Shown: one piece after another, positions 13,187 to 58,045 of the stretch | Numbering within the stretch: position 1 is the first letter of the stretch | How the letters are laid out: every line of letters begins with the position of its first letter | NCBI GenBank assembly: GCA_032622095.1 | Contig: CP136069.1 | Location: forward strand, 184,875,122 to 184,939,121 | Length of the DNA stretch: 64,000 bases | Origin: Siphonodentalium dalli | Lineage: Eukaryota > Mollusca > Scaphopoda > Gadilida > Siphonodentaliidae | Direction: 5' to 3' | Position numbers and translations under genes: made by a program | The notes under the pieces: model-generated | What the model was told of the DNA's origin: nothing | Databases searched by the model: none | Seen by the model: only the letters and a program-made list of their open reading frames with translations

Positions 13187-13622
13187 TCAAATTTTATTTT
13201 CAGCTATGATTGATTTTACTAAATTAACATATTCTCTACAGTACAGAAGAGAATTATTAAATTTCCAAAACCCTGGACCAGTTTTGATGTCACTGACGTT
13301 TAATGAGAGTGAAATAATAGAATGATCTGATTTGTACCTAGGTAAAATTTCCGGTCCTTCTCCAGTTAGATTAAGGAGGTCCTCAGAGATTAAAAAATAA
13401 TCTAGCCTCGCCATTTTAACTGGGGATTTTCTTCTCCACGTGTAACGTCTTTCTTGTTTATTGAATAGTCTCCACACGTCAACTAGTTCAAGGCTGCCGG
13501 CAAGGTCAACAACTTCATTTATTGCATGGGGTTTATTTATATGTTTGTAGTTATAAGTGTCTAGGTCTTGTTTCTGAATAAGATTCCAGTCTCCACACAT
13601 GATTATTTGCGTGTTCCCAATC
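13187..13622 (-). pseudogene. LINE ORF2 endonuclease domain, 5'-truncated
   Basis: The frame encodes the C-terminal two thirds of an APE-like endonuclease: IIMCGDWN (the GDxN motif), then ARLDYFLISEDL, then SDHSIISLSL, whose SDH includes the catalytic histidine. This nuclease nicks target DNA to prime reverse transcription. The N-terminal part is lost by 5' truncation at 13622. The open frame extends to 13705, but the last 83 bp belong to the host LINE (13633-13705) plus the duplicated target. A TGA at 13187 ends it in frame with the RT. Confidence 0.9.
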
Positions 13623-13632
13623 TGGGATATGT
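13623..13632. repeat. target-site duplication of L1-like LINE, 5' side
   Basis: TGGGATATGT matches 9494-9503 exactly and marks the truncated 5' border of the LINE. Confidence 0.85.
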
Positions 13633-13705
13633 TGGTGTCATTCCATCGACCTTTCTCTATTGGCAAGCGATGATTACAAGTACGGAATTGACAAAGAGTT
13701 ATCAC
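13633..13705 (-). pseudogene. older LINE, 5' half of split C-terminal domain
   Basis: The minus strand encodes FRTCNHRLPIEKGRW, the same motif as KLRTRNNRLPIEVSSW in the LINE at 30940-31443 and FRVRNHYLPVESGS at 19393. If the 4.1-kb insertion and one copy of the duplication are removed, this frame runs on into the Cys/His motif at 9281-9493 without a break. Upstream of 13705 the frame is closed. Confidence 0.8.
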
Positions 13706-28933: not shown

Positions 28934-28970
28934 TATATATATAAATCCCCGTGGGATTACAAGTCAGTTG
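28934..28970 (+). promoter_or_regulatory. core promoter: TATA box and initiator
   Basis: TATATATATAAA-type TATA box at 28934-28944. A TCAGTTG initiator lies at 28964-28970, which puts the likely start A at 28966, about 30 bp from the TATA box as in classical metazoan promoters. It sits 113 bp upstream of the ATG of the EGF-like gene. Confidence 0.7.
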
Positions 28971-29099
28971 TATCATCATCCACCACAGAACTCACGCCGA
29001 TTTCTGCACCGAAAGTCTACACCCAGCAACCTATTCATCTCAGTAACAGCTACATATTATTTGAGACTCACCTACAATATGATTCTTATCCATATTTCG
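28966..29099 (+). CDS. EGF-like gene exon 1 (5' UTR + codons 1-7)
   Basis: The 5' UTR runs from the initiator to 29078. The ATG at 29079 gives seven codons, MILIHIS, before the donor TTTCG/GTATGT at 29100. The exon ends on a codon boundary (phase 0) and matches the phase-0 start of exon 2. Joining the two yields an uninterrupted hydrophobic signal peptide, which is the reason for choosing this ATG. Confidence 0.75.
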
Positions 29100-32000
29100 G
29101 TATGTATTTCTTTAAAATTGTATATAATATAAAGAGTACGACATGTGTTGAACGTGTACAATTATATGATAATAAAGAAACTACATTGAAGTAATGTAAT
29201 GGTGGCCGTGCAACATATCAGGAAAAAAACCGAAAGTTAAAAACCGTATTCTAGTTAAATACACCTAATATATAGTGAACGATTTCTTGGGGTTCGAGAT
29301 AGGAAATATTCACATAGCTATCTTACACGCGCTGTATTTTCTAATATCCACGTTACTGCTGTTTCAAATCACCATAAATTAAATATTGTGTCAACTAAGA
29401 CAATAGCGACCAACAGTAACACTTCATGCTCCAAGTCAATAAAAAGATATGAATTCGTGATGCTAATGAACATTGAGATATGCATGCCTCCATCAGATTA
29501 AACACGGGAACTTTCAAATAAATCCACATGCAAATGTATAGTTGCATTAAAATTAATATAAACGATTATAGGCATGGACACATTTGATAAAAGGATTATT
29601 GTGAAGATTCTGCAATGAGCTGTTCTTTATGATTTTATGTATGTAGATGTGTAACATCAGGACACAATCACGCAAAGTGACAGATATTTTGAATTAATTA
29701 AACCACCCCGAATAAACAGAGGCTGCATAGGTTCCGCTGTACAGAACGCTGATCTTCAGAACCCACATAAGGGTGGATACACACATGGATGTAATCTCTG
29801 TAATTATAGGGTGGATACACACATAAATATTTTGGTCCATCGAAATAAATTGGCTATGTTTTTCCAGATATATCTGAATATACTGACGCTAAAATAGTTA
29901 TTTTTAACCCAACGATAGTGTTAATAAATCCCCTAACATTAGTAGATTTGACCCAACAATTCAGTAATTATTCACCAAAATGTTCGGGTACGAAAAATCG
30001 TCGAACGCAGTAGGGAAATTAATATTGTTAATATAATAATATTAAGTGTTACCCTGCGTTGAGTAAAAACAATGCCCAACATTGGGTAAAATTTATCCAA
30101 CGTTCGCGTTCACCAATTGTTGGGTAAACATTTTAGCCAACGCAATTTAGAGTGCAAGAACCTTGTGAAAGGGTTAAACGGAACTTGGGTTAAGGGTGGA
30201 TACACACATGCATGTAATCTCTGTAATTATCGTGTATTTGGCGTTTTACATGGATCATACAGACAATGTAATATGTGTCCACTGAAAACCAAATCATTGC
30301 CGACGTGTTGACCGCACTGAGTTCTAGTTCCAATTAAGTCGGATGCAGAGAAACCGCTATCTTGGACCCAGTCGCCAGGCCACTTAAAATAATTGTTCGT
30401 GGGATAACCCATATGGTGGACGTTCTATTTAAATAATTACCAGTCCTATCTTGATATTTATAGCAGTGGTGGATCAATATTTCCCCGACGCAGGGGGCTA
30501 TATATGATCCCCGACTTGGGGCCATATATGATCCCGAAAGCTACCAGGCGATGGTGGCTAACGCTGAGCTTTTTAAGTTAAACATATTAAATTGTACCTT
30601 CTTGCTCAGATTATTCCGACCGATACATTCAACTAAGTCCCTTAGCGATTTGAAGCTTTCGAGACCCCACGCAATCAATTCAATTCAATTCTTTATAATC
30701 TCCGTCCACTAATTGGTGGAACTGGAGGTAGACATTTATATATTACCATACATAATGTCAACAAAAGTTTAAAAATAATAGAGATAAATACACTAGGTAA
30801 ACTCACACAAAAAGATAACAAATTCGAGATAATAACATACTGAAATATAATTAAATACACACTTGGCTGGGAAAGCTGCACTGGGACCATGTTTATATAC
30901 GCAAAGGAGGGCATGCATTTGGATTCGATTTAAACCAAGTTAAATGGCTGTTTTTGTCACTATTTCCGATGCAAATCTGGCTAATTTCAACATGTTCGTT
31001 TTATTTCCGTCATTAAAAAGAAGTTTTAGTTTTTCATAAGTCGGATTACTTTGAAAGTATGTTTTCAGATAGGTTCCTCGGAAGGATGAAAGTTCGTTGC
31101 ATATGAATAGATAATGGTAATCGTTACCCGGTGTATCATCACCGCAAAGTTGGCAAGGTGAACAAGGAACATCTGAGTTTTTCCAACTGGAAACTTCAAT
31201 AGGGAGCCGATTATTTCTAGTTCTCAATTTGATCAGGTATAAACTGAATTTTGGCGGCAGTTCTAAAAGATATTTCTCTATGCCAAAAGATACTTTAATA
31301 ATTTTATATAGAGTATATTTTGAGCTCTGGACTAAAGTTTCGTTCCATGATTGCAAGTATTGGTCCGTTATACTGTTCAACATATCGAGCAAGGTATTCA
31401 CCATCAACAACCGACTGAGCATCCCATATATAGGTGAGACCACATTTATTGAGTATAAATTTTATTCTATTAAGCCAGGGGTTTTCAATCTCAGAACGAA
31501 TCGCAAAAGAGTACAACTATTGATATATAACACTCGACAGGTTATATGAATATCGGTTGACTAGTTTTGCCCATAATCGTATCATAGACGTTTCAATATG
31601 AATACATATCGGATAGCATCCACTTTCTCCATAAACCATACAACTAGGCGTATTCGTTTTCATTTTAAAGATTATTTTCAAAATTTGTAGTTGCACCCGT
31701 TCAAACCAATCAGTGTTCTCAAACCCAAACACATCACACCCATACAGCATTACTGGAAGGACCATTTTATTAAAGATGTCAATTTGGCAATCGAAAGCAA
31801 GATGATATTGTCTAATTTTCCTTATCACGCCAAACATAGACGAAATCGCTTTTTTCTCATTGTTGCGTCTTGCTCTGTAGAATGAGCCACTGTGAAAAAA
31901 GGTATCCCAAGATATTTGTATTCATTCACTACATCGATATTGGAATCGCCTAGGTTGAATTTCTGTTGTTTTATGTGTCGATGCGAGGAAGCAAAAATTA

Positions 32001-35000
32001 TCACTTTCGTTTTGGCAGTGTTAACGGTTAATCTCCAGTCTTCACAGTATTGATAAAATGCATTTAAAGCTTTATGTAGGCCATCCTTAAATTCAGCTAG
32101 CGGTACAGTATCATCAGCATATAGAAGTACAAAAATTCTTCGATAAAGCGCCACTGTGTTTTCTATGTCATTAGATATTTATTTTAGGCCGTCAATGTCC
32201 TTGCTTAAAAGGAAAGATTCAATGTCATTCAAAAATAGACAAAATAGCATCGGTGATAAGTTTTTCCTTGCCTAAGGCCGACATTACTTGGGCAATAGTC
32301 CGAGTGCAGCTCACCCACCTTAACTCGTGACTTAATACCCTGGTAAATATTATGAACAACATTTAAAAATTTACCATTAATTCCCTGCATCTGGAGCTTG
32401 AACCACAACCCGGCACGCCACACCGAATCAAATGCCTGTTTAAAATCTACAAATTCACAGAATAACTTTTTCTTCATATGGTTAGTAATGTTGATTAAAG
32501 CAGACAAAGTAAATATATACGCCAAACAAACATCATGGTCGAAAATGTTCTATATCAAGCCTGTATATGCCAGATGTGTCGCTTATGGTGTTCGTGCATT
32601 AATACAATGCCAGGTATCACACAGACTTGATTAATTTCCGCATCCGTAAGAGAAGATATGTTTTGGACTGGCCTTAAATGTCCTGGTACTCACTTGTCTG
32701 GCCTGTTAACAATGAACCGCTCGCGCACAGGTGATAAATGTTGTCAATTATTGTTTGCCATGTACAATACATGTATTTTACATACATAAATTACATGCAT
32801 GTATCAACCCTTAGGGTGGATACACACATGCATGTAATCTCTGTAAATATCGTGTATTTGGAGTTTTACATGGATCATATACACCGTGTAATATGTGTCC
32901 GCTGACAACCCAATCATTGCGACTGTGTTTGACCACAGTGAGTTAAACTCTGAACCGCTGAAGAGCCGTTGACTGGGACGAAGTCGTCAGGCCGCTTACA
33001 ATAATTATTCGCGCGATAACTCAAATGGTCGACGTTCTGTTTAAATATCGTCAGTCTTCTATTGATGTTAATACCAGTGATGGCCTCTTCCCCAACGCAG
33101 AGGGCTATGACCCCCAACATGCACGGGGAGCTATATTATCCCAGAAGCTACCGAATTCACCATTGCACATTTCCTCGACGGGGGGTGTGCATGCAGCACC
33201 CTGAGTCCTGACACCCTGCTTTATAAATATCGTAGTCTTGGCTGTCGTGTCTGTTTTCTACTAGTGATTAATCTAATATGCAGCAATTTATGCTATTCAT
33301 ATAATTATGAACATACTATACAGCTTTAAATTTGAATGCATGGTGTTGCTGTTTGTCTTCATTCGGCGAAAGGGTTGCCTAGCTACGAGTTCCCAACTAC
33401 GTCACCTTTCCTCTCTTGTGTTATACAGTTATACATGTATACGCAAAATTTACAACTATGGAATATTTAAGTAAAACATTATATAGTAATTCTTGCCCAG
33501 ATAATCCCGGCTGATACATTCAATTAACTCCCTTAGTTATTGGAAGCTTTCGAGAACCAGCCCCTCCCCCAATCATGGATTATGGTCGAAAATGTTATAA
33601 TTCAAGCTTGTGACAGGTAGGAGCTTGTTCAACATTTGGCTTGAGAAACATATATATAAATGGGGGGGGGGGGTGTCACTCTTTTTAATTTCAACGCTGT
33701 ACCTGCATTAGTTTTTGGCGCTATAATGAATATTTGCAATCCCAATTGAATTAATGTTATCACATGAGCTCGCTCTCAAATTATCAGAGAAATCTCAACA
33801 AGCCGGTATCATCCTATAAAAGAATTCTGCATATTTTATTTTTGTTTTGGATGACCCTGTTTCCAAGAAATGACAGAAACAAATCAAGTATAAAATCGAC
33901 CGGCTCTAATCCACTTTTCGAAATGAATTATAACTCGTGAAAAACAGCAACATATATCAGACAAGAATTACTCATTTCGGCATCCATGAAAGAAGACATG
34001 TTTATGACTGGCCTGAAATTTCTTGAAGGCAGTTTGTTTGATAATGGCTTATAACTACTCACTGGTGAAATTGACCTCTCGCGCGCAGGTGATTACTTTT
34101 GTCAATTATTGGTGTGGCCATGTAAAATACATGTATTTTACATACAGACATTACATGCATGTGTGTATCCACCCTTACTCGGACATACCGACATCTAATC
34201 ACTGAAAGTAAAAGTCATATAACCATAATTCCTTTGATTTTGGTGGCACATATAGTGCGAATAATATTATCTTGTTTGATTTTGGTGGCACATATAGTGC
34301 GAATAATATTATCATGTTTGATTTTGGTGGCACATATAGTGCGAATAATATTATCTTGTTTGATTTTGGTGGCACATATAGTGCGAATAATATTATCATG
34401 TTTGATTTTGGTGGCACATATAGTGCGAATAATATTATCATGTTTGATTTTGGTGGCACATATAGTGCGAATAATATTATCATGTTTGATTTTGGTGGCA
34501 CATATAGTGCGAATAATATTATCTTGTTTGATTTCGGTAGCACATATAGTGCGAATAATATTATCTTGTTTGATTTCGGTAGCACATATAGTGCGAATAA
34601 TATTATCTTGTTTGATTTCGGTAGCACATATAGTGCGAATAATATTATCTTGTTTGATTTCGGTTGCAGATATAATACGAATAGCATTATCAAGATGTAA
34701 CGTTGGGTACATCGTATATATAAGTTTAGATCATGCCATGAATCTTTACTCTGGCAAACGCCCGTACATATCATATTCCACCATTACAAAACCTGGGAAC
34801 TTTTTGTAAGTTTTGACAGGGAACCTTATAAAATTTAAAAAACAACACAGGGAATATATTTCTTTGTTATTATCTGTTTCTTAATAATGTACTTCGCTGT
34901 AAGTGAAGATCCCAACTAGAAACTTTACGATTTAAGTGACTTGGTGAGCGATTTTGCATTTGCTTTGCGTTTCATAAAATTATGGAATTTTTCCTGGGTA

Positions 35001-38000
35001 ATTAATTGAATATGTATTACGATATCGGCTCTCAAAGGTCCCAGAAAAGCATGCAATTTAGAGTTGGCACCTTCACATATAGTGGATTACACTATTAAGG
35101 GACAGAAAATCATTAAGAAATATATTCCCCGTGTTATTTTTCCGACTTTACAAGGTTTCCTGTCAAAACTTCAAAATGTTCCAAGGTTTTGTCCTGGTGG
35201 AATATGATCTCTACGTGCATATATAGTTAAGAGAAGAGATTCATGGCTTGATCTAATATGTGTTATTCTTCTGTCACATAGCTTAGACAGTAAATCTAGC
35301 TTACCTCAGACATTAGCTTAGACAGCAAATCTAGCTTACCTATATAGCTTTTGATTCAGGTTCCAGTGTAAAATATAACATGTGTTGGAACGAGAATTGC
35401 TATTGTATACATGTGGGGTAACATGGCAGACTCTAGTTGCTTCATATTGAATATGAATTGAACCATTTTTAAATATCTTTTCGATTTACCAAATTAGAAA
35501 AAAAATCTAACTATTGTTACATGCTGGAGAAACACGAGGCTTTTAATTTGCGCAGACGGTAGTTTGTGCACTAATAAGTCTATACGGAACATATATACGG
35601 TGTAGTCCACCATTTGCAGATTTTGCGCTTTGATTTTCATTGGACCGTAATTTTGATGTTGTTCATGTCAGAATTAACCAAGACAAGATATTGATTATGT
35701 ATTGAATATATATAGAGGATATCTACACTTTATGGTTGGATATGGGAATTATCTCATGAGTGATGACCAAAAAAAATGAATTTCCACGAGTGGCTCTGCC
35801 ACGAATGGAAATTCATTTTTGTTGTCATCACGAATGAGATAATTACCATATCCAACAAAAAAGTGTAGATTTTCTGTTTATTATATGCTCCGCTCATTTG
35901 GACCATTACGACTAAACTCGAAAGAAGAGTCAACAGAGAAAATTTGTATACACAAGCACAACCATGGTAATGAGCTTGTGCATATACAAATAGTTCCATT
36001 TTTCAGACAGATTGGTTGAGGGATAAATGGGTTAACATCATAGTATGTTTAACAAAATTATTTAATATATATCATATATCACAATTTTTTCAACCTGAAC
36101 ACTCAGGTACGTTTAGCATAGTTTTCATCAAGAAACCTAATCACTTTTAACGTTAGCGCGGATGGATACGAGTGAGATATCGATATCTCACTAGACGGAT
36201 AACGGTTTGTATCTGATGCAAAAATACTATTATTTGATATCTTAGCATATAATAAATATATATATCCCATTATGTTATTCTTTGCAGTGTGTGTGCTTAG
36301 TTTTTGCGTTGGCAGAAGCCGCCTATCTCGGCCAGATGTGCTCCTTACGTATCAGATGCACCGTGAGGAATTCCATCTGTCAAGCGCAACCAAGCCTACC
36401 ACTTAAACCCATTGCAATATGCCAATGCGAAGCAGGATTTTGGCAGTACCCAAACAACAGATATTCATGCCAGCCAAGTTAGTATGGCTTCCTCACTAAA
36501 GGGTCTCCAGGTCTTCAACGTGGGTTCATTCACATACATTTTCTCACCAATAAAGAGATTCCGTATATCAAAACCGTTGTTACTCAAACATTACTGTTAC
36601 AGTAGAATTGTCGATAACAGTCCAACTATTCCCACAAGACGCTAAAGTTTAATCAATTATTGACGGTAATTAAACACTGGAAAAGGTCAAAGCATTGAAA
36701 AATATTCTGAAAATCATATTCTGACTAAAATATTTGAATTTGCTAAACGATTAACGTTGTTTTTTGACAACAAAACTATACCAGATTTGTGTACATATAT
36801 GAAACAATTGTTTCAACATGAGAAAGTTCGTTATTGGAAAACTATCAACAATGAATATAAGAAAAAAGTTTATCTCTATGTTCTTCTTAGTGGTGATGTT
36901 TTTAGACTTTTATATTTTATGCACATTTACCCACTGCGAGTACCTTGCGTCCCTTTAATTGTTAAAATACGATTTTGATTTGTTTCTCCAGATGCTGATA
37001 GCCCGTTTATTATATACACGAGTGTATTCACAACACATAACAGTACCAAAGCAGGCGTGGTTTTGACTGTGTATTTTAGCCACTTTGAACATGACGGTGG
37101 TTGGCCGTAACATGCTACAAGGCGTACATTACTGTTAGTCGGGGTAATCACGTTCTACTGAGGTTGTTAGATTTGCATTGGGCTGAGCAGATGTTATGTT
37201 TGAACTCTATGTCTGAAATAAACGCATCTTTTATACTAGAATTAGCTTTCGGAATCTTCTGATAGGAGAATATACTGTTCACTTCACCGCCATGTGGACC
37301 TGATATGAAATGAAAACGCCCGGTGCCGATCACACGGTAACTTCGCGCAGCGCTATATTAGGTAACAGACACCTTTCACATAATGAACGACAACAGATAG
37401 TTATTATCAATAGGATACTACGTCACTTGAATTTGTGTTCTTTCTATTGTTTGTCGCTTTTTCCTAACCATTGTTACGAATACGGTTTTTGATTTTCAAC
37501 ACAACTCACAATTACACCATATATTAATAAGTTTGCGATCGTTTCGCAGCTCCTCAATGTGGGATATGACTGAGATTATGTCCTTAAATTGTGAATTTGA
37601 GCCATTGAGTTAGAGCAAATTACACCGATTTGCATTATGACCCACGCAAAGAACACGGTAATTATAAAGAAAATAAGTTTATGACTGTAATTCATTTTAA
37701 TTATGACCATGTTGTTTGTAGTGTTCATACGGTAAATGCGTGTATTTTGCACTCATGGTGGCTCAAATTCATTCATTTGTTGCATATATGATGTTGAGTA
37801 TAAAGGATATGTCCGACACATGGCAAGATTTATGGTACAGTACCCCTTTAAGTCAGAGTGGTTTGCACGTGTAAATAACTTGTTGATTCTATTTTTTCTC
37901 GAACTGGAACAGGAATATTAATATTCGTAAAACATGGAATTTTATTTAGGATCTGGTTTTTTAAAAAACATTTTCAAAAGTCAAAAATATCATGAACATC

Positions 38001-38967
38001 GGGGCAATCATGATTATGTATATACAAAAAGAGCTTGTTTACACACATTTATTGTTGGTAGAAGTATGATGCGAAGAGGTTGTAACAGTATTGCTTTGTT
38101 ATGTCATAGATAAAAGATAATAAAAAACGAACAACAGATATATCGTATTCCAAGACAATATGACCCGGGATTGAATGTCAAATTGTGGGATGTATCGCTT
38201 TCCTGATGTTTATTACAGAGAGGGTACCGGGTTATTCCTGCAACCTAAATTATCCCAACGTGGACCAATGTGTGGACAATGCCGTCTGTCAGACATCGTA
38301 CACCACCCACCAAGGACGTAATTTCGGCTCCGGTGACAGATACTACTACAACAACGCCATCTGTATGTGCATGCCAGGGTACCACTCTACTGGAATAGCA
38401 TGCGAGCCACGTAAGTTTATGTGTTATTTTATCATCGCGAGCAAATTAGATTTATCTGCATTGTTACTCTCACAAACCAGGTAAGTTTATACTTTGTTTG
38501 TCCTCTGTGTCCAGTGTTATATTTATGTGCCAAGTAACAAGCCTTGAAATAGTGAGCTGTCATTTGCAGAATGAGGTCCCCAGAGGGTGAATTTTGTGAT
38601 GCTACCCCGCATAGCGGGCTAGCATCACCAAATTCACCCTCTGTGGACCTCATTCTGCTTACACCTCAGCTGAATGAGGTCCCCAGAGGGTGAATTTGGC
38701 GATACTAGCCCACTATGCGGGGTAGCATCACTATTCACCATCTGGGGACCCCATTCTGCAAATGACAGACACACTATTTATGAGGCAAGTAAGATTATGT
38801 GTCTAGAAACATTTATACAATAAAATCGAGGAGAGTCTCCCGGGACAGTTTTAATATCTTATGAATATTTAATCTTTTCAATTTTAACTTTATTAAACTA
38901 ATAGATTTAGAAATTAATATAAAATCACTAGCACAGAACAATTAGAATAGAAATATTTTCGTTTAAG

Positions 38968-39012
<45 letters not shown>

Positions 39013-42000: not shown

Positions 42001-45000
42001 ACTAGTTGCCTAATTCCAGACAAATGCACACAGCTACAGTGTTGGAAATTTTAAACCTCATACTCCCCCTCAGGTTGGAAAATTCTTCTACTGATGACCA
42101 TTTCTGTCCACAAGTTTGACCAAATGTAGTAAAATATTGTTTTGGGGATGGGGAAATGACACACCGCGCCCGGTGGGCGATAATTTTGAAATCTGAACAA
42201 GAAAGTCGCAAAATCCTAACATCTAGACTAGCCTCAAGCCTTCCTACTGTTGGAAATTTCAAACCCAACACCCCACTTAGGTTGGAAAATTTCCAACTGA
42301 TGACAATTCCAATGATAATGTTGACCAAATGTATGACAATATTGTTTTCTTAAATTAACTATAAGTTTTTGACTGGCCACGGGAGAGGGACCAGGAGCCA
42401 AGCTTTCCAAGTGTTGGAAATTTCCAACCTGTCATCCCCCCTAAGGTTGGAAAATTTCCAACTGATGACCATTTCTGTCCATATTTTTGACCAAAAATAA
42501 GAACATACATGTATGCAAATATTGGTCCAAAAACAATAAATTCCCCCAATAAATTGTTCTGTAATCAAACTACAAGAACATTTTCAACCTATTGTTGGTG
42601 TGAAATTACCAACTAATGTTTTGGCAGGTATTATATTTCCAACTGTTGAAAATTTTGACCAAAGTTGGGGGGGGGGTGAGACCCCCCCCCCCCCTGTCGC
42701 CACGTCTCTGAGTATCAGACTCAGGACTAAATTTGTGCCAGTTTGTGGTTATCACAGGCGTCTACTTGTAGTTCAATCTGGTACTCGGTGCGGGTTCAGA
42801 GAGTTTTCAGATATATATTTAAGAATATTTCAGCACACATATCACTGAATACCTTTTGTGTAAGAACACCCATTGTCAGTGTTTGGCGCAAATTTATTTT
42901 CCAAATTGCTGTTTGCTGATTTAGCAAATTTCTTAAATCAACCCATTGAGAATAATTGCCATTATTATCATTTAAATGTCTTCTAATGCAAGGCGAGCGT
43001 GTCTGTTTATACAAAAACAGGGAACTATCATAGCCAGTTTTCATACCGCTTACCGATGTGGGCACCCAAACTGCAGGTGCCAAAACAAAATATTTTGTTT
43101 TTTGTTAATTCAGGTCCCAATTCATATCATAACAAAACATTTATATACCGGTACCAGTATATTGACATAAGACATTTATTTTACAAAAAGATGGTTGGAA
43201 TCATATTTTTTTTTTGTAAAGCATGTTTGGCTTTCATCTGTGAAAACTTCCAATAGTTTGAGTTCAGGTTTGTTACCATTCAGCTACTTCCGTATTTCAA
43301 TAAAATTCAAGTGAAATTACACAATACAGTGCAGGAACAGTGACAATTTGATCAATACAACATGGTTATTAGGTGGAATCTCATAATACCAAATTAATAA
43401 TTAACATAGAGATTAATACTAATAGTAATTACTAACTTAAAGGTACTCAATCCGATCAGAGGGTCCTATATTATTATTTCATTGGCTTTGGGGGTAAAAA
43501 ATATAATTGATTCGAATCGAGAAACCTACCAATCAACACTCAGGGTGATTATCGATATTTGAAGTTTTGTTATTTCTATTCTTTGTCCCAGAACATGGCG
43601 TCAAAAGGAAGTTCTCGGTCAAAATTGCGCTATTATTACCATTTGATTTTAGAGTTATCCATCCTTGTCTGTTTGAATAGTGTTTCTGGTGTACACATCT
43701 CGAGCAAATTACGAAGTTATGGGCAATTATTAGTACTGATCTCGGGAAAATAAAAAAATTCAAAAAATCAATATCTAATAACTCTGAGCTTTGTTTGATG
43801 GGTTCCTTGACTCGAATCAAATATGTTTTACCCCCAAAGCCAAAGAAATGGTAATATAGGATCCTCTGATCGGATTGAGTACCTTTAATATACATTATTT
43901 CTGCACTACTACATGTAGTATATTATATGTACATGTATAAAGTGTCTCTCACTTGAATATTTATAAAATAGCCTAATATATGAATTTAATATCGTAGAGT
44001 GATATTACACGGAACTGGTAAATCTCATTTCAAGCAGGATAATCATAATCCATTGAACCAAAAGATATCTGACAATAACTTATAATCATTTACAATCCCA
44101 TACATATATAAAAATATCCAAAGTTACTCTTGACAAATTAAACTCTCAATACAATGGATTTAACAAAAAAGTTCAGGGGTACAACTGCCAGACCCAACCA
44201 TCAGCAGGGGGCACCCCCTCCCGAACCTCCCTGCTCAGGCCTTTTGGCAGATCATTCCCCGATAACAATGTCCCCAAAAATCCCTGGATCATTTAATGAT
44301 ACATGTACGGTATATGTAATGTATAGGCAAGGGGTTGCACGCGGTCCTTCAGCCGCGAAACACGTTTTTTTTATCAAAATAATATTGTATTTGACCAGTA
44401 AAACATTATAATTTAATACCTGTAAATAAACAATATAACATATAGCATCAAATAGTTGCTTAGTTTGGTTTCGAGGTCAGATATCGGATGATTCAGGTCG
44501 AGTCATTTTATGCACACAATATGTCTTAAGTATAGAATAGTGTTAAAATGCTTTCGTTCAATTCATCACAACTGGAACATAGAATGGAATGATCTACAAT
44601 GGGGTCTCGAGCAGTTTACCCCTTCGCATATTGAACAACGATGCCATTAAAATGGCATTTCCAGCCCGAGGACAGGAGCGATCCGTCATATTGTAGTCAC
44701 CCGACTAAGCCCAGTTGATGAATTGACTGTAGAAACATTTTAAAATTATCATCCATACCAAGTTTCGCATGGATGTACTATATAATATATCGGATCAAAC
44801 CCATATTCGAACTTGATCTGCATTTTGGTGTGATTAATTTACATACCAAACATGGTGTCGATCAGATGAAAAATGTTCGAGTCATAGCTGCATGTGTGAA
44901 CTCTTTAAGTAAAAACAAAAGCAAAAATGGTTAATTACACAATATAAAAAAATCATGTTGTATGTACAGATGAAGAACGTGATAAGAAAAACCTAGGTAA

Positions 45001-48000
45001 GACATTTGAGGCAGAAGAAATATGTTTGACTTACTACTAGTAGTATGGCATCAGATAGCATGTGCGTACGTGAAGGGTAGATTATTTTCTAAACAGATCA
45101 ATGAATCGATGCGGCAGCAAAACATACACAGGTGAGGGGATCACTGGGGGTGTGTCATCACACATGAATTAAATAGGAACACAATCGGACAAAAAGTAAA
45201 TAGGTTTATATGGTATCAGATAGCACATGCCAATTTGGCATTTGTGAATGCAATCTGTAAAGTGTTAATAATTTCTGAACCGATCGATACAAAAACTATA
45301 CTATTACAGGTGAGGGGTGTGTCATCATAAACATGTACATAAAATTTGAACAAGATCCGATAAATTATACCGGTACTTGAGTTATCGTGTCGATAGCAAG
45401 TGTCTACGGATGGACAGACAGACAGACGAACGATAGCTGGTTGATCCAGACACTGGCATTATGTGTTCCATACATGCCTACACATAAACACATGCAACAT
45501 ACACTACTTTCTAAACGAAATATTTGGATAAGAAATTTGCCAATCAAAAAGATCGATAAAATTTGACATTGATTTACCTTTTATACTCAATCGATCTGCG
45601 GGGTCAAATGCTTCATTTTCAGGGCGGAAACAATATGGTTCCAATTGGTCATTTGAAATGTACATGTACACTTACATAGACCAATTAGCAATCAAGTTTG
45701 GTCACTCATCTCAGATGTGAATGGATCACGTGGTCAAAATGTCAGCCGATTGGAATTCCGAACAGTCAAAATGTTGTGTTAAATTGTTCTGGCGATGACT
45801 AGAACATTGACAAAACGCTCCCAAACTAATATATGGCAACAAATCAGTATACTAATTATTAGATAACAGTTTACGAATACACTGAACTCACCTGAATGCG
45901 AATATAGATGATCAATTCCAATCCAAACAGACGATAATACGATGTAACCCAAACATCCATGCTTTGACAAGCCGAATCACACACTTTCCACTTCGCGAAT
46001 TAACCTGTTCGATGAAATATAGGGCGGTGGTCACTGGTTATTTGAACTTATTTCACAAAAATAGTGACACATTACAACAACCAGCTCATGATACGAATGA
46101 TATTTAAGTTATTGCGATCGAATATTGATTCGAATGCACGAACAATTCAATGAGACTATACGTACATGTGACAAATCAGTCCGCACGTGAAATCGCTGTC
46201 TGTAGACTGTATTTTTAAGTGTAAACACGTAGTATTGACTAATGTCAAAGCGCTAATAACTAAACAATTATTGCGATCCCGAGACACATTCCTCCCCTCA
46301 CATGTCCACGAATGAACGAGAAAATATCTCACAATTAAAGTGACATACACAATTAACAATTAGAACTGAAGGAAGTCAGAAAATTTTAAATGATTCGTTC
46401 CCGCCCGACTGCAATTTGTTTTAATGTTGTTCATTGTCACGTGACCATGATTCAATCAAAATGGCGTCCCCATAGTAACGATTTCTTCCAACTGGCAAAT
46501 CTTATTTCTACAATAATAGCACCTAGTAACTTGACCATACTATCGTATAATTGATTTACGGTGTCGGGATGACAATACCGCTGGATAATTTGGCCAAAAT
46601 AATGAAAATTAATGGATTTGTGATTTTGTCATAAAAAAAATTCAAATACCATTTTCTCCACCAAAAACACCGTTGAAATTTTTTTCAGTCTCGGTTATGA
46701 CTTCAGATTACCGATTTATACAATATCTGAGCTTGGGAACTCTCCAGGTCCCCTATTTCATCATGTGGTCACTTTTTTTTCATGGCATAATTTAGGGGAA
46801 TCATACCTTAAAACCGTCTGGGTTTTCATATGGAAAAGTCCATTGTGGTGGGTTTCACAGATTGAACATATTTTTGTCTAATAAAAATTTCTTCATATTC
46901 TGACCAATGCACTGATGGGGAATTGTTAAGATAATACTGTATCAATACGTTGAACAAAGTTGTTTAGTTGTATTTATTATCTTGACATTTCCCACCAATG
47001 GATATAAATGCTTCTTTTATTGTCCGTTCGCATGTTTTTCGCCAACTCGTATTTCATGAACATCCATCTAAATGAATAATCGACCATTCCAATCTATATG
47101 TTTGTAACTTGGTGGAAGAATCCGTCCAGTTAATACTTGGTTAATAGACAAATGCCGAAGCCAAACATACCATCATAGTCTCAGTATATCTAGTATATAC
47201 CCCTCGGAAATGCACGCGCAGTTATGTCGCTTGATAATAATATCCGGTCACGTGTTCTACTTCCAGGTATCGATCTCGGCGAACCATGCGTCTACCACGA
47301 GACATGGTGCAACGAATGTCGCGACTCCGGCGACGGTCAATGTAAAGAGCACGCCGCCTGCAGAACGCATGTTGACGCTAACGGCACCACAACTCATATC
47401 TGCAAATGCGTCGAGAAATACTACGTCGAGCATGATGGGGTTTGTGTGAAAGGTACTGAACTAAGTATCTAGTCTGTTTTTAACGTCTATACAACCATTT
47501 AACCCGTGTCTATTATACATTCCGTTTCCAGTCAAAATGTGTCTTTTGAGGAATTGTATGGGCGGCCAATTTGTCTAAATTATGTCAAATAGATATTAAC
47601 CCTTTATCCAACAAACCGGCCAAAACCGGCCAAATAAAGCTTCAACAGCCTAAAATATCTTCGGTCTGTCTCAATAGAACCATACAAATATGGGTATCAT
47701 TGGAACCGGCTCATTGACCACATCGTGATGGTTACAGTTATGCCCTGTGCCACTGCATTCTCTTATATATGCGAGTCGACCATAGGTCGCCTCGCATATA
47801 TAAGAGAATGCATTGGCCTAAAAAAAATCTAGGCGACCTATGAATTGGATTTTCAATCGATCTTTAAAATTGGATTTTCCGTACGCGCTCTTTAAAATTG
47901 GATTTTCCGTACGTGCACCCCACAAGTCATGCAAACAAAAGATCGCACCTCACAAGTAACACGTGGTGCGTATAGCCGGACAAACATAATTTCATTGATA

Positions 48001-51000
48001 TCGCGAATTGTTTAATATATCCCACTAGAGAGCGTTTTTAATGTAATGTAGTGGGAAAGAACTCAATTGTATATATTGTAATCAAATGTGAAAACACAAT
48101 TCAATAGACGTCACCCAAAATTGTTGGCTAGTTTCTTTTCAATCGATATGTCAATTCCAATTTAATATACATCGTTTAAATTAAATTACGTTTTCCACAA
48201 TTTGTTACCATATATACGAAAGAGTTTATTCCGCACAACATTATATGAACATTAAGAGCGCCAAATGTGTTGGCTTCTCTCAAATCATGTGCATACGTGT
48301 TATACTTATCTGACTCTCATTTCACAGAAATTCCACTTGGCGGAACCTGCAACCACAACGGAGAGAATGAGTGTGTCACAGACAACGCAGAATGTGTCGC
48401 CAAGGATGGAAAATCAACCTGTGGGTGTTCAGATGGATATGAGCAGGACGGAAATCATGATTGTGGTAAGTATCGGGATATCACTCTTGAAGAACGACAA
48501 AAACAAAACAAACATACAAATACACAAATAAACAAAACACATATGACGCTGACACCTCCTATGTAAGGTGTGTGATGTACACCGTCTTTGTGTCGTCATG
48601 AGTTTGTGTTGGAATTCTTAATTAGAAATAAGAATTGTTTAATGTAATCAAATGGTGCCCATATAAAGGGGATATATCGCTTACGTATTCCAATGTATCA
48701 ATAAATGCGCATCTGTTACTTAACATTTACCAGTGTTTATAAAACCTTGGATATTCCAAGTTAAAGTTTGAACGCACGTGAGTGACCTTTGTCTTCACTT
48801 GACCAGCAGTTTCGGGTGTGATCAATCGTCGCAATTATGTGCCATGAGAGTATCAATTACACCGTATATCGAATTTAGACGTATGAGGATTTTTATTTTG
48901 TTTGTTAAAGATTGTCTACCACTTCCGGACCACAATTATTACACCGAAAAACAACTTATTTGTTATAAAACCCGATTACCATAATAAAATTACCATTTTC
49001 TGTGAATAAATCAGAGACCAAACTGAAGATTATTTGTCTTTAAAGCACAATATAGTGGTTGATTCCTACAATATATATGAAATTAAATTATATTTTTCTT
49101 GATGGAAAGTTCAAAAAGATATGGTTTTCCCTCTTGTTGCCCCGAACGTTTCCGATAGAACAAGTTTCTTATCTAAAAATATCCAGTAAAACTGTTGCAT
49201 ACATAGATATTGTACCAGACAAGACAAACTTGGAATAAAATCAATGTTAGTTTATAGAAGCACTTCCGGACAGTTGTCTTCGATTGATGTTTTTATTTAA
49301 TGCCCCTGAAACTATGTAACACTTGTTAGAAAGAGACAGAACATTATTAAGGTTTAACATCCATTTGTTCGCTAAGCCATATCACGCCAAACGAATGAAC
49401 ACAAATAATTACGTGTGTAATTTTGATAAGGCAGTGTTGAGTAAGTGACTACAAGAACACAATGATGATCATCTGGCCACGTCACTGTCCGACTCGCGGA
49501 CTCTATACTAGTTATTTTCTGGGGGGTTTAGCCAACTTGGACCTACTCTAAAGGGTTCTGTTTAATATAAAAATATACACAACCAAAACATGGATACAAA
49601 GTAACTTGTCTCTTCTCGTTCTCTTACAGTGCCTTTCTGGTCAATCGTGGACGATTTTCTGAACTTATTTTATTACGAAACAAATACGAAAGCATATGTT
49701 ACGGACAAGTAGATATAAGTTGGTGATATGCTTTAAAATGGACGTAGCACAAAGCTATCGGTTGTCGAAAATACCAAGATTAATAAATTTGTTGATTTTG
49801 ACAAAATATTTCAAATAGTTTGTATTGAACTTCGTATACAAGTCAAATCTCAACGAAAATATACATCTGAGTTTGAAAATAGTCCTGGAAGTACTATAAT
49901 TTATATGGGTTGATTTTCATTGCTAATTATTTCTATTAAACCCTATCGTTTAAACCCTAGCGTTCTGTGGTGTGGATCTGAACCACTGGAATTCATATAC
50001 GGCATTGGTCCTGGTCCGAAATTTACGTTTATCTGCGGCTAGTTAGTCACTTACGTTTATCCGAGGCTAGTTAGTGACTTACGTTTATCTGACGCTAGTT
50101 AGTCACTTCCGTTTATCTGAGGCTAGTTAGTCACTTACGTTTATTTGAGGCTAGTTAGTCACTTCAGTGAAATCAATTCAGTTTCGGTGGTAGCTTTTGT
50201 CGAAAATACTAGCAACAATATCCATTTCGGCATGACATTATTGTGGCTCACCAAGTGTCGTCAACAATGAGCTGAACCAGTATCAATGTACCCTCTGTAA
50301 TTTAGAACTGGGTGATGAATACAACATTATACTTAAGTGCTCACAAATTCACGAGTTGAGACTAAGATATATTCGCCCTTATTATTTTCGAAGACCAAAC
50401 TCACATAAGTTACTGCAATTATTTAACTCCCGAAATGAAAAAACCACAAGGAAACTGTCGATTTTCGTCGGAAAGGTCTTAGACTTGTTTAAGTCCTCTT
50501 GAGGCTAAGTAGCATCCATAACACAAACCCCACTAACTGGACCACATTGATCAAATCTAATATTATTATTATTATTACCATCTAAAAGCAACAAGCATGA
50601 ACATTACTGTATTTTCGTATATATGTGCTCTATATATTATAACGCAGGTGCATGGATTATATATATTATGTATCTGATTCTGTAATTCTATCTGTAATAT
50701 CACAATATGATAACCAGAATAAATAAATTGAATTGAATTGAATTAGGATGTATGGCAACTTTAATGCCAGACAAACATTTTTCCAGGCCGATATGACACA
50801 AAATATAGGTAGGCATTACATAAAGTGTTTCGGTTGCCATGGCAACTATTTTCGAAAATATCCAGAAATTGGTTATTTTTTACTGATATTTCAGGGAGTT
50901 TTTTTTGTTGAAATACGCAGTTTCCTTCAATGGAAAATAAACATAAACCATATTGCATTGGAAATATATCTTATATATCTTGAATATATAGCATTATAAC

Positions 51001-52410
51001 TTGAATTCCATTCATATATATAGTTTATTATTGGCAAATAAGTCATAAAGCATGATGATTTAAACCCAAAATAAAACAATTTGAATACAAGTCACGCAGA
51101 GACTGAGTGTCATTTCAGAGAATTCGTTAATTTTTAGATTCACAATGCATACATGTGTAATGTAGGTATTACTTGCAGAAAGCAATCAGTTTAGATAATA
51201 TTGTTTTCTCCCATCAATTGCGAAACGATGGTCAGATTGACAAGTAAATCGAATCCATCGTAGAAAGATATAAATGTTCAAGACCATCTGTATCATATCA
51301 CAAATATTACCAATGAGATTGGTTAGTTCTAGCTAAAGGAAACGCACAATTTGGTGTAAACAATATTTATTTCAACAATCAAACATATCACACAAACACA
51401 ATACACATTTAGGTACATAGAGATTTAGAAAGAGGATTGGACTACAAGCAAATGCTTTCTTAAAGTCCTCTCCTCGTGGAACAAATGTTACGCCTTGTTA
51501 CAGAAATATCACTTGAGGTAAAGCAGACGGGATATATAGTTTTGTTTTATTGGAATATTATTACATGTTTAGGATTGAGATATGGGTATAACATTGTAAT
51601 ACGGGAGTTAAGGGTGAGGGTGGGAGATATAATAACATTCCAATCAAACAAAACTATATATCGAGAGAGAGAAAGAGAGAGAGTGAGAGAAAGAGTGATA
51701 GAGAGAGAGTGAGAGAGAGGGGGAGAGAGGTTTGACACAACATGCATTCGATACAAAACAACACAACAGTATCCGTTCAGTGGGGAAATCACTTGCACGA
51801 ATGCGTCACGACCACGGATGAGAAAAGGCGATTCATGCAAATGGAATCTAGCCGCGTCACCTGAAGTAAGCTATGAGCAATGACTACCCACATTTTGTTG
51901 TATCTATCGCGATAACCAGTTTGCCACATGATAATTCTACTGGGCCATAATGTGCAAGAAACCGGAGCAAATGTTAATATAAATCCCGTTTCTTGTGAAC
52001 AAATTGTCATAAGACCCATATATCGCAGGTATATTTTAGAACACGATTGCTTACGCCTGACTACACATTTGCGAAGTCAACTTTTTACACGGCCTTATAC
52101 GGAGTGTGTCTGACTGGGCTACACACAATAATATATGCACTGCATACATACATATATATAGATAGTTTTATATTTGAGAGCATTCCAGTACAATTTACTT
52201 TCAAATAAACTGCAATTTATGGATGTATTATTCAAATGGTTGCAATTCTACTGGGCAAAGGAAAAGTGCATGGTCATGATTTTTTGATATTTTATAGCAC
52301 TGCCACATCACAAACATTTCATAATATTCATGCATGTGTGTTCTTGATATATTTCAGTCGTTTCGACCGGCCAAGGCAACGGTAATGGCAACGGTAATGG
52401 CAACGGCTAA
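29079..52410 (+). CDS. secreted protein with four EGF-like Cys-rich modules (6 exons)
   Basis: Six exons join in frame: 29079-29099, 36288-36477, 38219-38410, 47267-47452, 48328-48465 and 52358-52410 (780 nt, 259 aa). Every intron begins GT and ends AG. Residues 1 to ~18 (MILIHIS + CVCLVFALAEA) form a signal peptide split by intron 1, with a likely cut after AEA. Four modules follow: about 26-69 (six Cys), 77-132 (six Cys), 138-195 (eight Cys) and 201-242 (six Cys). Each has the CxC then Gly/Tyr-aromatic then C end typical of EGF-like folds. The C-terminus is a Gly-Asn repeat. There is one N-glycosylation sequon (NGT) in module 3. No membrane span is seen after the signal, so secretion is inferred; partners and role are unknown. 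Introns 2-5 are all phase 1, the arrangement expected for shuffled extracellular modules. Extra exons hidden in the 8.9-kb intron 3 cannot be excluded. Confidence 0.85.
29106..30190 (+). other. intron 1, first part
   Basis: Intronic AT-rich DNA. Two solo fragments of the GGGTGGATACACACATG terminus lie at 29768-29796 and 29809-29826. A self-complementary stretch around 30060-30145 uses CCAACGTT/TTGGGT words related to 1-235. Confidence 0.6.
30940..31443 (-). pseudogene. LINE C-terminal domain
   Basis: The frame encodes KLRTRNNRLPIEVSSW and then CQLCGDDTPGNDYHYLFIC, a Cys2-His-Cys-type motif found at the end of this LINE family. It is the last coding part; the stop at 30940 is followed by ~245 bp of 3' UTR. 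It lies in a different frame from 31517-31837. Confidence 0.85.
31517..31837 (-). pseudogene. LINE region between RT and C-terminal domain
   Basis: The frame encodes FDCQIDIFNKMVLPVMLYGC followed by a stretch rich in aromatic residues, the segment that follows the RT thumb in CR1/RTE-like LINEs. It overlaps 31825-32154 by 13 bp in another frame, so an indel separates them. Confidence 0.8.
31825..32154 (-). pseudogene. LINE RT fragment with motif C
   Basis: Encodes LLYADDTVPLAE (motif C, catalytic Asp pair) then VNTAKTKVIIF and VNEYKYLGI, the standard order after the active site. The frame opens after a break from the fragment at 32229-32525. Confidence 0.88.
32229..32525 (-). pseudogene. LINE RT fragment with motifs A and B
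   Basis: Encodes CEFVDFKQAFDSVWR (motif A with its Asp) and NVGLRQGK (motif B). The RT fingers and endonuclease are missing because of 5' truncation at about 32532. A frameshift after motif B ends the frame. Confidence 0.88.
32814..34174. mobile_element. Harbinger-like element, copy 2, 1.36 kb
   Basis: The ends are inverted repeats: GGGTGGATACACACATGCAT on the left and ATGCATGTGTGTATCCACCC on the right. TTA lies directly outside both ends (32811-32813 and 34175-34177). It aligns along its length with the two halves of copy 1 (shared words GAAGCTTTCGAGA, GGTCGAAAATGTT, ATACATGTATTTTACATACA). Its left TTA is also the right TTA of copy 1, so the two elements abut. It contains a G10-12 run at 33661. 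No transposase frame is present. The superfamily call rests on target and terminus only. Confidence 0.82.
34233..34694. repeat. 42-bp tandem repeat, 11 copies
   Basis: TTTGATTTTGGTGGCACATA begins each unit at exact 42-bp steps from 34233 to 34653. The first seven copies carry GGTGGC; the next three carry CGGTAGC; the last is diverged. Because 42 is a multiple of three, frames on both strands are open (e.g. MFDFGGTYSANNII repeated), but this is intron 1 of the EGF-like gene and no coding role is inferred. Confidence 0.95.
34695..35720 (+). other. intron 1, middle part
   Basis: A short duplication, CTTAGACAG(T/C)AAATCTAGCTTACC, lies at 35282-35306 and 35317-35340. CATATTCCACCATTACAAAACCT near 34770 pairs loosely with AAGGTTTTGTCCTGGTGGAATATG near 35184, suggesting another ~450-bp fold-back element at about 34765-35210. 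Confidence 0.5.
35721..35870. mobile_element. 150-bp fold-back MITE
   Basis: ATCTACACTTTATGGTTGGA at 35721 is mirrored by TCCAACAAAAAAGTGTAGAT ending at 35870. The arms continue inward (GAATTATCTCATGAGTGATGAC with GTCATCACGAATGAGATAATT, then AATGAATTTCCACGAGTGGC). They meet at a 4-base loop near 35795, so almost the whole element forms one hairpin. Confidence 0.88.
36288..36477 (+). CDS. EGF-like gene exon 2 (signal peptide end, module 1)
   Basis: Acceptor TTCTTTGCAG ends at 36287; donor CCAA/GTTAGT at 36478. It encodes CVCLVFALAEA, the rest of the signal peptide, then a six-Cys module with spacing C-x5-C-x6-C-x13-C-x-C-x13-C. 190 nt, phase 0 in and phase 1 out. Confidence 0.85.
36478..38218 (+). 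other. intron 2
   Basis: 1.74 kb of AT-rich DNA. Short frames on both strands (36757-36978, 37148-37333) have no domain. No repeat element was recognised. Confidence 0.6.
38219..38410 (+). CDS. EGF-like gene exon 3 (module 2)
   Basis: Acceptor GTTTATTACAG ends at 38218; donor CCAC/GTAAGT at 38411. 192 nt, phase 1-1. The module has six Cys, with an unusually long third loop of ~25 residues rich in Tyr, Gly and Asn (FGSGDRYYYNNA) before CMCMPGYHSTGIAC. Confidence 0.9.
38541..38786. mobile_element. double-hairpin MITE, copy 1
   Basis: Outer inverted repeats: CTGTCATTTGCAGAATGAGG on the left and the matching CATTCTGCAAATGACAG on the right. Each half is itself a hairpin built on GGTGAATTT, GATGCTA, GCATAG and GGGCTAGCATC. 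A second copy is at 57802-58045. Confidence 0.88.
38968..39020. repeat. (GA)n microsatellite
   Basis: About 20 GA dinucleotides from 38970 to 39009, followed by GGGGAGAGAAAAGG. Confidence 0.97.
40206..41757 (+). other. intron 3, direct repeats and unassigned DNA
   Basis: ACCGTGTGACTTAGCATCGA followed by CCACGGTGATATATATTACGA occurs at about 40219 and 40494. GAAGCAGCGAGC then GGCATACG then TATAGTGTTTG repeats at 40299 and 40342. CCACCACCACCACC and CAACAACAACC simple repeats lie near 41240-41282. A 23-bp stretch at 40633-40657 (CTTAAGGTAGGATTCCCCTA) is inverted at 46789-46811. Confidence 0.6.
41758..42710 (+). mobile_element. hAT-type MITE of the GACGTGGC family, copy 1
   Basis: The left end TGCATGGACGTGGCTAGAAG and the right end TGTCGCCACGTCTCTG are inverted. 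Outside them AGTATCAC and AGTATCAG match at 7 of 8 positions. The interior has a repeated ~190-bp unit built on GTTGGAAATTTCCAACC then AACTGATGACCATTTCTGTCC, plus G and C runs near both ends. It is homologous, in opposite orientation, to 60021-61070. Non-coding. Confidence 0.82.
42711..43436 (+). other. intron 3, unassigned
   Basis: About 42735-43080 is mildly conserved-looking but has no domain; overlapping frames on both strands are short. Nothing supported. Confidence 0.35.
43437..43888. mobile_element. TTAA-flanked MITE, copy 2
   Basis: TTAA AGGTACTCAATCCGATCAGA at the left and TCTGATCGGATTGAGTACCT TTAA at the right are exact inverted repeats at the tips, and the inversion extends ~120 bp inward with mismatches (GGCTTTGGGGGTAAAA and TTTTACCCCCAAAGCC). 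This is the best-preserved copy of the family. No coding capacity. Confidence 0.9.
43889..47266 (+). other. intron 3, remaining part
   Basis: About 44790-45440 contains two diverged copies of a ~190-bp unit (GGTATCAGATAGCA..., then ...ACAGGTGAGGGGTGTGTCATCA) ending in GGACAGACAGACAGACGAACG, a repeat style also glimpsed at 56460-56590. A C- and G-rich segment lies at 44175-44345. No exon with a matching phase was found. Confidence 0.45.
47267..47452 (+). CDS. EGF-like gene exon 4 (module 3)
   Basis: Acceptor TCTACTTCCAG ends at 47266; donor AAAG/GTACTG at 47453. 186 nt, phase 1-1. The module has eight Cys: the usual six plus a CNEC pair in the first loop. It carries the sequon NGT. Base composition is more GC-rich than the flanks, as expected of coding sequence. 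Confidence 0.9.
47453..48327 (+). other. intron 4 with partial 27-kb-type element
   Basis: 47743-47818 is a hairpin made of CCCTGTGCCACTGCATTCTC and its inverse, nearly identical to 27153-27228. AGGCGACCTATG follows at 47831-47842. The internal unit and right terminus of the 602-bp element are missing, so this is a partial or a shorter palindromic form. Two copies of AAAATTGGATTTTCCGTACG lie at 47868-47886 and 47893-47912. Confidence 0.75.
48328..48465 (+). CDS. EGF-like gene exon 5 (module 4)
   Basis: Acceptor TCTCATTTCACAG ends at 48327; donor TGTG/GTAAGT at 48466. 138 nt, phase 1-1. It encodes a compact EGF-like module, C-x7-C-x6-C-x8-C-x-C-x11-C, ending CGCSDGYEQDGNHDC. This is the closest of the four to a canonical EGF repeat. 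Confidence 0.92.
48466..50024 (+). other. intron 5, first part
   Basis: No gene or recognisable element. A frame at 48778-48984 has no domain. Confidence 0.4.
50025..50164. repeat. 28-bp tandem repeat, 5 copies
   Basis: ACGTTTATCTGAGGCTAGTT begins at 50025, 50053, 50081, 50109 and 50137. Each copy differs by one to three bases. Confidence 0.93.
50260..50745 (+). mobile_element. LINE 3' end with AATTG tail
   Basis: From 50260 a frame encodes QCTLCNLELGDEYNIILKC and a basic C-terminal tail to a TGA at 50500-50502. The text NLELGDE is identical to the copy at 19393. A 3' UTR leads to AATTGAATTGAATTGAATT at about 50726-50744. Only ~490 bp remain, a strong 5' truncation inside intron 5 of the EGF-like gene, on the sense strand. 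Confidence 0.87.
50746..52357 (+). other. intron 5, last part
   Basis: A (GA)n-type tract (AGAGAGAGAAAGAGAGAGAG) lies at 51664-51728. AACTATATATCCCGTC / GACGGGATATATAGTT-like pairing brackets about 51527-51662. No gene is seen. Confidence 0.5.
52358..52410 (+). CDS. EGF-like gene exon 6 (Gly-Asn tail and stop)
   Basis: Acceptor GATATATTTCAG ends at 52357. The exon enters in phase 1 and encodes VVSTGQ followed by GNGNGNGNGNG and a TAA at 52408. The coding DNA is a GGCAAC/GGTAAT hexanucleotide repeat, so the tail could vary in length between alleles. Confidence 0.8.
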
Positions 52411-52700
52411 GGGTAGAATGCCAGCCAACAAGAGACTATTTGACAGGCAATTCACCAGATGACAACAGCAGATAAATAATGGCGACAAGTGCGCCACCAT
52501 GCAAGAACTGAATATGGAAGTGCCATGTAACCGTTGTCCACAGCGAAGATCTTGACCGACATATCACTGAGACCACCATTCCCTCCCCTTTCACCTCCAA
52601 AATTCCGGATGCGTTAGGTCGGATCGCCGGATTGCGACGCTTTCGTGCGCTGGATTGCGACTTTAACGTACGTCGGATTCCAATAAAATAACGGGGTCAA
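52411..52700 (+). terminator. 3' UTR and polyadenylation signal
   Basis: AATAAA at 52682-52687, about 272 bp after the stop codon of the EGF-like gene. No better signal lies between the stop and this point. Confidence 0.65.
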
Positions 52701-54550: not shown

Positions 54551-54905
54551 GGCAATTTTATTTTTATCTCGTTTAAACGAGATAGCAGGTGTGAAATTTT
54601 ATTTTTATCTCGTTTAATCGAGATAACTTATCTCGTTTAAACGAGATAGCAGGTGTGAAATTTTATTTTTAGCAGGTGTGAAATTTTATTTTTATCTCGT
54701 TTAAACGAGATAGCAGGTGGGAAATTTTATTTTTATCTCGTTTAAACGAGATAAATTATCTTGTTTAAACGAGATAGCAGGTGGGACTTTTTATTTTTAT
54801 CTCGTTTAAACGAGATAACTTATCTCGTTTAAACGAGATAGCAGGTAGAAATTTTATTTTTATCTCGTTTAAACGAGATAACTTATCTCGTTTAAACGAG
54901 ATAGT
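54551..54905. repeat. cluster of ATCTCGTTTAAACGAGAT palindromes
   Basis: The perfect palindrome TATCTCGTTTAAACGAGATA or a one-base variant occurs about ten times between 54567 and 54902. Single palindromes or back-to-back pairs (joined by ACT or AT) alternate with the spacer GCAGGTGTGAAATTTTATTT. The unit is ~45-65 bp. Confidence 0.93.
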
Positions 54906-57801: not shown

Positions 57802-58045
57802 CTTGAAATAGTGCGTCTGTCATTTGCAGAATGAGGTCCCCAAAGGAAGAATTTAGTTATGCTACCCCACATAGTGGGCTAGCATCATCAAATTCACCCT
57901 CTGTGAACCTCCTTCTGCTGAGGTGTAAGCATCATGAGCTCTCAAGAGGGTGAATTTGGTGATGCTAGCCCACTGTGCGGAGTAGCATCACTAAATTCAC
58001 CCTCTGGGGACCTCATTCTGCAAATGACAGGCACACTATTTCAAG
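57802..58045. mobile_element. double-hairpin MITE, copy 2
   Basis: Starts CTTGAAATAGTG and ends CACTATTTCAAG, a perfect 12-bp terminal pair. The internal order (CTGTCATTTGCAGAATGAGG, GCTACCCCACATAG, GGGCTAGCATCATC, and the mirrored half) matches 38541-38786. Confidence 0.9.

Follow-up and report, generated by a model that had tools for sequence, protein, structure and literature searches.

Gene structure and paralogs

The window analysed here, a stretch of 64,000 nucleotides from Siphonodentalium dalli (contig CP136069.1, positions 184,875,122 to 184,939,121), contains on its forward strand a gene of six exons, whose structure was reconstructed at single-base level. Every intron is GT-AG, the phases are 0, 1, 1, 1 and 1, and the exons join in a single open frame coding for 259 amino acids. 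The coding part of exon 1 (29079..29099) encodes MILIHIS, the putative start of a signal peptide, and is followed by the donor GTATGT. Exon 2 (36288..36477) encodes the remaining signal peptide and module 1 (6 Cys, residues 25-68), exon 3 (38219..38410) module 2 with 6 Cys and a 24-residue Tyr/Gly/Asn loop, exon 4 (47267..47452) module 3 with 8 Cys (6 core Cys and a CxxC pair), and exon 5 (48328..48465) module 4 with 6 Cys, the most conserved among the modules. The Gly-Asn tail VVSTGQGNGNGNGNGNG, built from 12-base repeat units, is encoded by exon 6 (52358..52410, stop included). A TATA-type core promoter lies at 28934..28946, 145 to 133 bases 5' of the ATG, and a polyadenylation signal AATAAA was read from the window sequence at 52682..52687. 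Intron 1 carries approximately eleven copies of a 42-base tandem repeat (34233-34691, 97% matches).

Repeated and mobile sequences were also observed in the window. A 5.3-kb minisatellite of 24-base units (20509-25826, ~211 copies), with a GC skew of up to 0.63 per 4-kb step, opens several long reading frames, which are probably meaningless. Reverse-transcriptase-like frames recognized by eye at 10230-13705 (minus strand), 7962-8336 (plus strand) and 30940-32520 (minus strand) resemble non-LTR retrotransposons or pieces thereof. An array of a palindromic unit around TTATCTCGTTTAAACGAGATAA occupies 54554-54904, and two similar inverted-repeat elements (AGAATGAGGTCCCCA...), also noted by eye and perhaps representing a small DNA transposon, are at 38560-38770 and 57820-58030.

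When the genome (2.23 Gb in nine contigs) was searched with the product and all 71 candidates were scored, 54 matching pieces were obtained, the window's own four counted. Forty-four of these are on contig C9, at 184.84-185.28 or 186.98-187.24 Mb, and two more lie at 116.7 Mb of that contig; the remaining pieces are on C3 (six) and C6 (two). Excluding the two pieces at 116.7 Mb, the exon matches were grouped by order and strand into 17 loci lettered A to Q; the window gene is B, and the other 16 loci contain related exons. A second search, using exon 2 of one paralog as query, located this exon in further copies, of which those in P and Q were weak matches (E 0.02 and 0.01) accepted on position and Cys pattern. 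All four module exons were located, in the same order, in 12 of the 17 loci (A, B, C, E, F, G, K, L, M, N, P and Q). The module-2 exon was not found in H, I and O in the genome searches, and loci D and J contain broken exons. The family multiplied recently within the genome by tandem and seemingly inverted duplication.

A DNA search with 181 bases around exon 1, promoter included, found 10 places on C9 (window counted) and none near D, F, G, H, I, J, N, O, P or Q. The exon-2 frame of H, I, N and O is open upstream through MLVVSFQ, therefore their leader may be built differently. Apart from the first exons of A, B, L and M, two extra exon-1 copies precede each of C, E and K, six in all; these may be additional genes or alternative first exons. 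Copy F (C9:185101650-185102450) has two exon-2 units approximately 60 bases apart, with a full module 1 in each. The C9 cluster at 184.83-185.10 Mb seemingly has a second, oppositely oriented version about 2 Mb away, at 187.14-186.98 Mb, with look-alike locus pairs A/M, B/L, C/K and F/J between the two clusters; this doubling stems either from an inverted duplication of large size or from the assembly.

Conservation of splice sites and reading frame was determined in 48 aligned paralog copies of exons 2-5, a number that leaves out one distant exon 5, which gave no end-to-end alignment, and ten later exon-2 stretches. The acceptor AG was kept in 5/5 copies of exon 2, 11/11 of exon 3, 15/16 of exon 4 (lost in D) and 16/16 of exon 5, and the donor GT in every aligned copy (5/5, 11/11, 16/16 and 16/16, respectively). 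Seventeen of the 48 copies differed in length from the window exon, 16 of them by a multiple of three, the sole exception being exon 5 of the broken copy J. Internal stops were seen only in exon 5 of D and J. The frame was kept in all five copies of exon 2, and the six Cys in all eleven copies of exon 3. The nine non-window copies of exon 1 all had the donor GT; eight had the ATG (one CTG), and one contained an in-frame TAG; both deviations occur among the six extra copies near C, E and K. Since paralogs elsewhere in the genome keep the splice sites and the frame, the gene is more than a product of chance and, judging by the frame-preserving length changes in the copies, its reading frame is in use.

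These comparisons confirmed, at the level of sequence, that the locus is a real gene with exon borders as first drawn. The sequence-only reading had described a complete six-exon gene, and its borders, phases and 259-aa product were all reproduced, with borders and frame kept in the paralogs. Its leader split across exons 1 and 2 and its four Cys-rich modules (6, 6, 8 and 6 Cys) were upheld by paralog conservation, and the eight Cys of module 3 and the enlarged loop of module 2 were both seen. It had taken the locus for one gene, which is real but not single, being a member of a family of about 17 loci. The leader was judged by eye to be a signal peptide; it is hydrophobic, and a hydrophobic N-terminus is conserved in the paralogs. 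The motif TATAWA was present at -103 to -145 in all ten exon-1 copies examined (window counted), but because this region is AT-rich, isolated TATA matches carry little weight. The AATAAA signal occurred at a comparable distance in two (A and L) of the five paralogs whose 3' sequence was examined; it was not found at such a distance in M, nor in the shorter 3' stretches of G and D.

Tail exon and module type

The window tail consists of five GN pairs and a final G (11 residues). A DNA search for exon 6 found six places on C9 (window counted) and one short match on C4. In all eight exon-6 copies read (A, B, C, D, G, K, L and M) the acceptor is TTTCAG and the exon encodes a Gly-X tail: VVSTGQGNGNGNGH in A and M, VVSTGQGNGNDNG in L, VVSTGQRNGQGNDQRNGKGNP in G, VVSTNDQGNGRGNGHGYGQGNGQGNGQGSGEGNNKG in C, a similar tail in K (read by eye from DNA) and 27 residues in D. 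The tails of A, L and M stop after 13-14 residues. Thus, of the (GN)n C-terminus proposed earlier, the tail exon itself is real and supported by the paralogs, but the repeat amounts to only the five pairs and a G, and is a variable Gly-X sequence in the other copies. To judge from these copies, the common trait of the tail is frequent Gly alternating with other residues and not Gly-Asn itself, and its length is free. Of six distant copies compared over approximately 10 kb 3' of exon 5, C and K had a homologous exon 6 and none was found in F, N, O and P, which may end differently or have their exon 6 too far off. Because the tail is short, is curtailed in A, L and M, and has an exon that was not found in four of the six distant copies, it may be dispensable.

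It is extremely improbable that the last exon is a segment at 49630-49712 (VPFWSIVDDFLNLFYYETNTKAYVTDK) and not the Gly-Asn exon. This segment, whose DNA is 96-98% alike in four paralogs (A, D, L and M), has a good pyrimidine tract, an AG acceptor and a compatible phase, and its acceptor and frame length are intact also in copy L. However, A and M lack the acceptor and are frame-shifted, D is frame-shifted, and six short copies matching part of the segment are dispersed over the rest of the genome. Because it has decayed in three of its four paralogous copies and is in part dispersed-repeat sequence, the candidate was rejected and exon 6 was kept.

Among the Pfam profiles, the EB module (PF01683) matched the whole product with 37.6 bits (cut-off 24.3) in two stretches. 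The best EB stretch, residues 182-242, comprises the end of module 3 and module 4, and spans eight Cys, the final two of module 3 plus all six of module 4. The Pfam EB unit has eight conserved Cys. Taken singly, module 1 (20.2 bits) and module 2 (11.9 bits) scored below the cut-off, and modules 3 and 4 gave no EB match with E up to 1. In the paralogs, module 1 of F (28.0 bits) and modules 2-4 of P (24.7 bits) exceeded the cut-off. All EGF profiles remained below their cut-offs both with the whole product (cEGF 15.2 bits, cut-off 26.6; EGF_MSP1_1 15.5, cut-off 27) and with module 4 alone (EGF_MSP1_1 17.4, cut-off 27; EGF_3 15.9, cut-off 28.5; EGF_CA 15.3, cut-off 27). Because the EB cut-off was passed and those of the EGF profiles were all missed, we regard the product as a tandem EB-module protein, which, going by the profile scores, is a protein type already known. 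The earlier description of the modules as EGF-like was right about the Cys pattern but not about the profile that is exceeded, and its statement that they do not form a standard EGF tandem was correct.

A search of the genome with the EB profile, in which 150 of 289 candidates were scored, did not have this gene family among the eight loci listed. The eight other matches above the cut-off, from the same 150 scored candidates, are located on C5 at 108.7-110.8 Mb and on C6 at 51.6-53.1, 75.0 and 192.5-200.5 Mb. No family was matched in a search of the NCBIfam profiles, and the best hit among solved structures searched by sequence was an unrelated protein (E 0.31, not significant).

The number of Cys in module 3 ranges from 6 to 11 among the copies (11 in I and 9 in O). 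With the WCNEC pair the window module reaches eight Cys; 4 of the 14 aligned rows (N, H, P and Q) lack it as a pair, which fits a disulphide gained or lost.

Modules 3 and 4 of the window protein were each modelled from an alignment of four rows. The mean pLDDT was 81.4 for module 4 and 64.5 for module 3, and Foldseek returned no match at E 0.001 or better for either model. The best E obtained with the model of module 3 was 0.57. Several of the higher-ranked PDB matches of module 4 were EGF-like domains; these matches were weak, none better than E 0.3. In VIA the module 4 model gave no Z of 5 or more, and inhibitor-cystine-knot peptides ranked above EGF domains, all with Z of 3.6 or less.

Parallels were sought among known proteins. 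The mollusc Gly/Asn-rich shell matrix proteins N16 and nacrein have a Gly-Asn repeat beside a Cys-rich part. Compared with this general description of them, the repeat of the window protein is 11 residues long, and variable or cut short in the paralogs. The window protein shares with EGF-like tandem proteins the six-Cys modules with a C-x-C pair and the phase-1 module borders; it differs from them in reaching no Pfam EGF cut-off. Some EB-module proteins carry the name prion-like (Q/N-rich) domain-bearing protein 25. One protein of this name was listed in the Ascaris larval fraction AsL3ES; at 141.5 kDa it is far larger than the window protein (PMC7169012). The closest described proteins found are the EB proteins of Anisakis, which resemble the window protein in the EB profile and in having several adjacent modules: EB module 2 is reported to have four adjacent EB modules and EB module 1 three to five, and the tandem EB-module proteins were upregulated in tissue PX, read as pharynx (PMC5763927). 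Set against what is described of them, the protein studied here has a Gly-X tail, one module per exon and about 17 loci in one genome. Unlike in EB-module proteins, the window modules fall below the EB cut-off when taken singly. Among the open-licence matches listed, no report combined tandem EB/EGF-like modules with a Gly/Asn tail.

Unequal evolution along the protein

Rates of replacement and silent change were compared in nine recent pairs, which are all pairs among B, A, M, L and G except the near-identical A-M. In these pairs dN/dS was 0.27-0.41 for modules 2-4 together and 0.73-1.83 for the mature module 1. Fisher tests of module 1 against modules 2-4 gave p values of 0.012-0.048 in six of the nine pairs, and of 0.19, 0.26 and 0.36 in the other three. 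Change between copies thus seems unusually rapid in one module. When F, a more distant copy, was the partner, the dN/dS of module 1 was 0.16-0.34, and the contrast between modules vanished. Because the pairs share branches, the module 1 contrast is a lead and not proof of positive selection. Modules 2-4 of A and M gave a dN/dS of 0.52, derived from only 6 changes. Values for other close pairs, over the exons held, were 0.28 (C-K), 0.32 (C-E), 0.36 (P-Q) and 0.53 (E-K). For H and N, in exons 4-5 only, dN/dS was 1.51 (2.5 silent and 14.5 replacement changes), which speaks against uniform purifying selection.

Silent divergence also varied along the gene. Between F and B, dS fell from exons 2-3 (1.11 and 1.09) to exons 4-5 (0.30 and 0.18), and between C and B it fell over exons 3-5 (0.86, 0.34 and 0.21), whereas the fall was not clear between N and B (1.01, 0.64 and 0.72) or G and B (0.30, 0.27, 0.19 and 0.23). 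The matches of F and C continue into the introns flanking exons 4 and 5. The drop in dS, found in several though not all comparisons, suggests gene conversion of the 3' half.

Possible role of the protein

The simplest reading of a protein that is secreted, disulphide-rich, modular, tailed and present in many local copies is a component of a secretion or matrix, in line with the matrix or mucus role suggested in the sequence-only reading. We infer, tentatively, that it could well act outside the cell, lending structure or adhesion to a secretion such as mucus, glue, cuticle or shell matrix. After signal cleavage the secreted protein would have approximately 240 residues, with four EB/EGF-like modules stabilised by disulphides, each encoded by its own exon and with phase-1 borders between them, followed by the short Gly-X tail. 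The conserved modules 2-4 would form the body, the tail could provide flexibility or self-association, and the variable module 1 might set the binding target of each copy.

The fast module 1 and the local expansion, however, suit immune, venom or reproductive secretions equally as a matrix, and the main rival is a secreted recognition or defence family, in which module 1 would meet changing partners (microbes, parasites or gametes) and modules 2-4 would serve as a scaffold. Such a family would account for the high dN/dS of module 1 relative to modules 2-4 with the low p values in six of nine pairs, for loops that vary in length while the Cys are kept, and for the many local copies. We consider it rather unlikely: three of the nine pairs, which are not independent, gave high p values (see above), the ratio of module 1 is low against the distant copy F, and relaxed constraint accounts for the same numbers.

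The structural or adhesive role was also weighed against two readings of the module type. A modular secreted protease inhibitor appears improbable, as the window protein had no TIL or Kunitz match with E up to 1 (the HMMER filters drop most matches above 0.1), and the weak TIL match of module 2 in paralog N (15.2 bits), which points towards an inhibitor, is under the cut-off of 24.5 bits. The Anisakis report describes EB modules of nematodes as 'often associated with Kunitz domains', which is consistent with an inhibitor as well (PMC5763927). We give very little weight to a role as an EGF-type ligand that signals through a receptor: the EGF-type C-x-C pair of module 4, its weak EGF profile scores and the EGF-like domains among its Foldseek matches argue for it, but every EGF profile fell short of its cut-off, and VIA placed cystine-knot peptides over EGF domains at low Z.

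A more specific proposal, which the sequence comparisons make conceivable but which we think unlikely, is that of a newly expanded secreted recognition or adhesive family, in which selection would drive the diversification of module 1, while purifying selection and gene conversion would homogenise modules 2-4 and the 3' part of the gene. The most interesting aspects of the locus are the family and its uneven evolution. As a well-supported family it offers many natural replicates, in which splice borders, gain and loss of disulphides and uneven evolution can be tested from sequence alone. If the proposal of a diversifying module 1 is true, each copy would combine a conserved scaffold with a variable head of its own, and the family would point to what the secretions of the animal must recognise or stick to.
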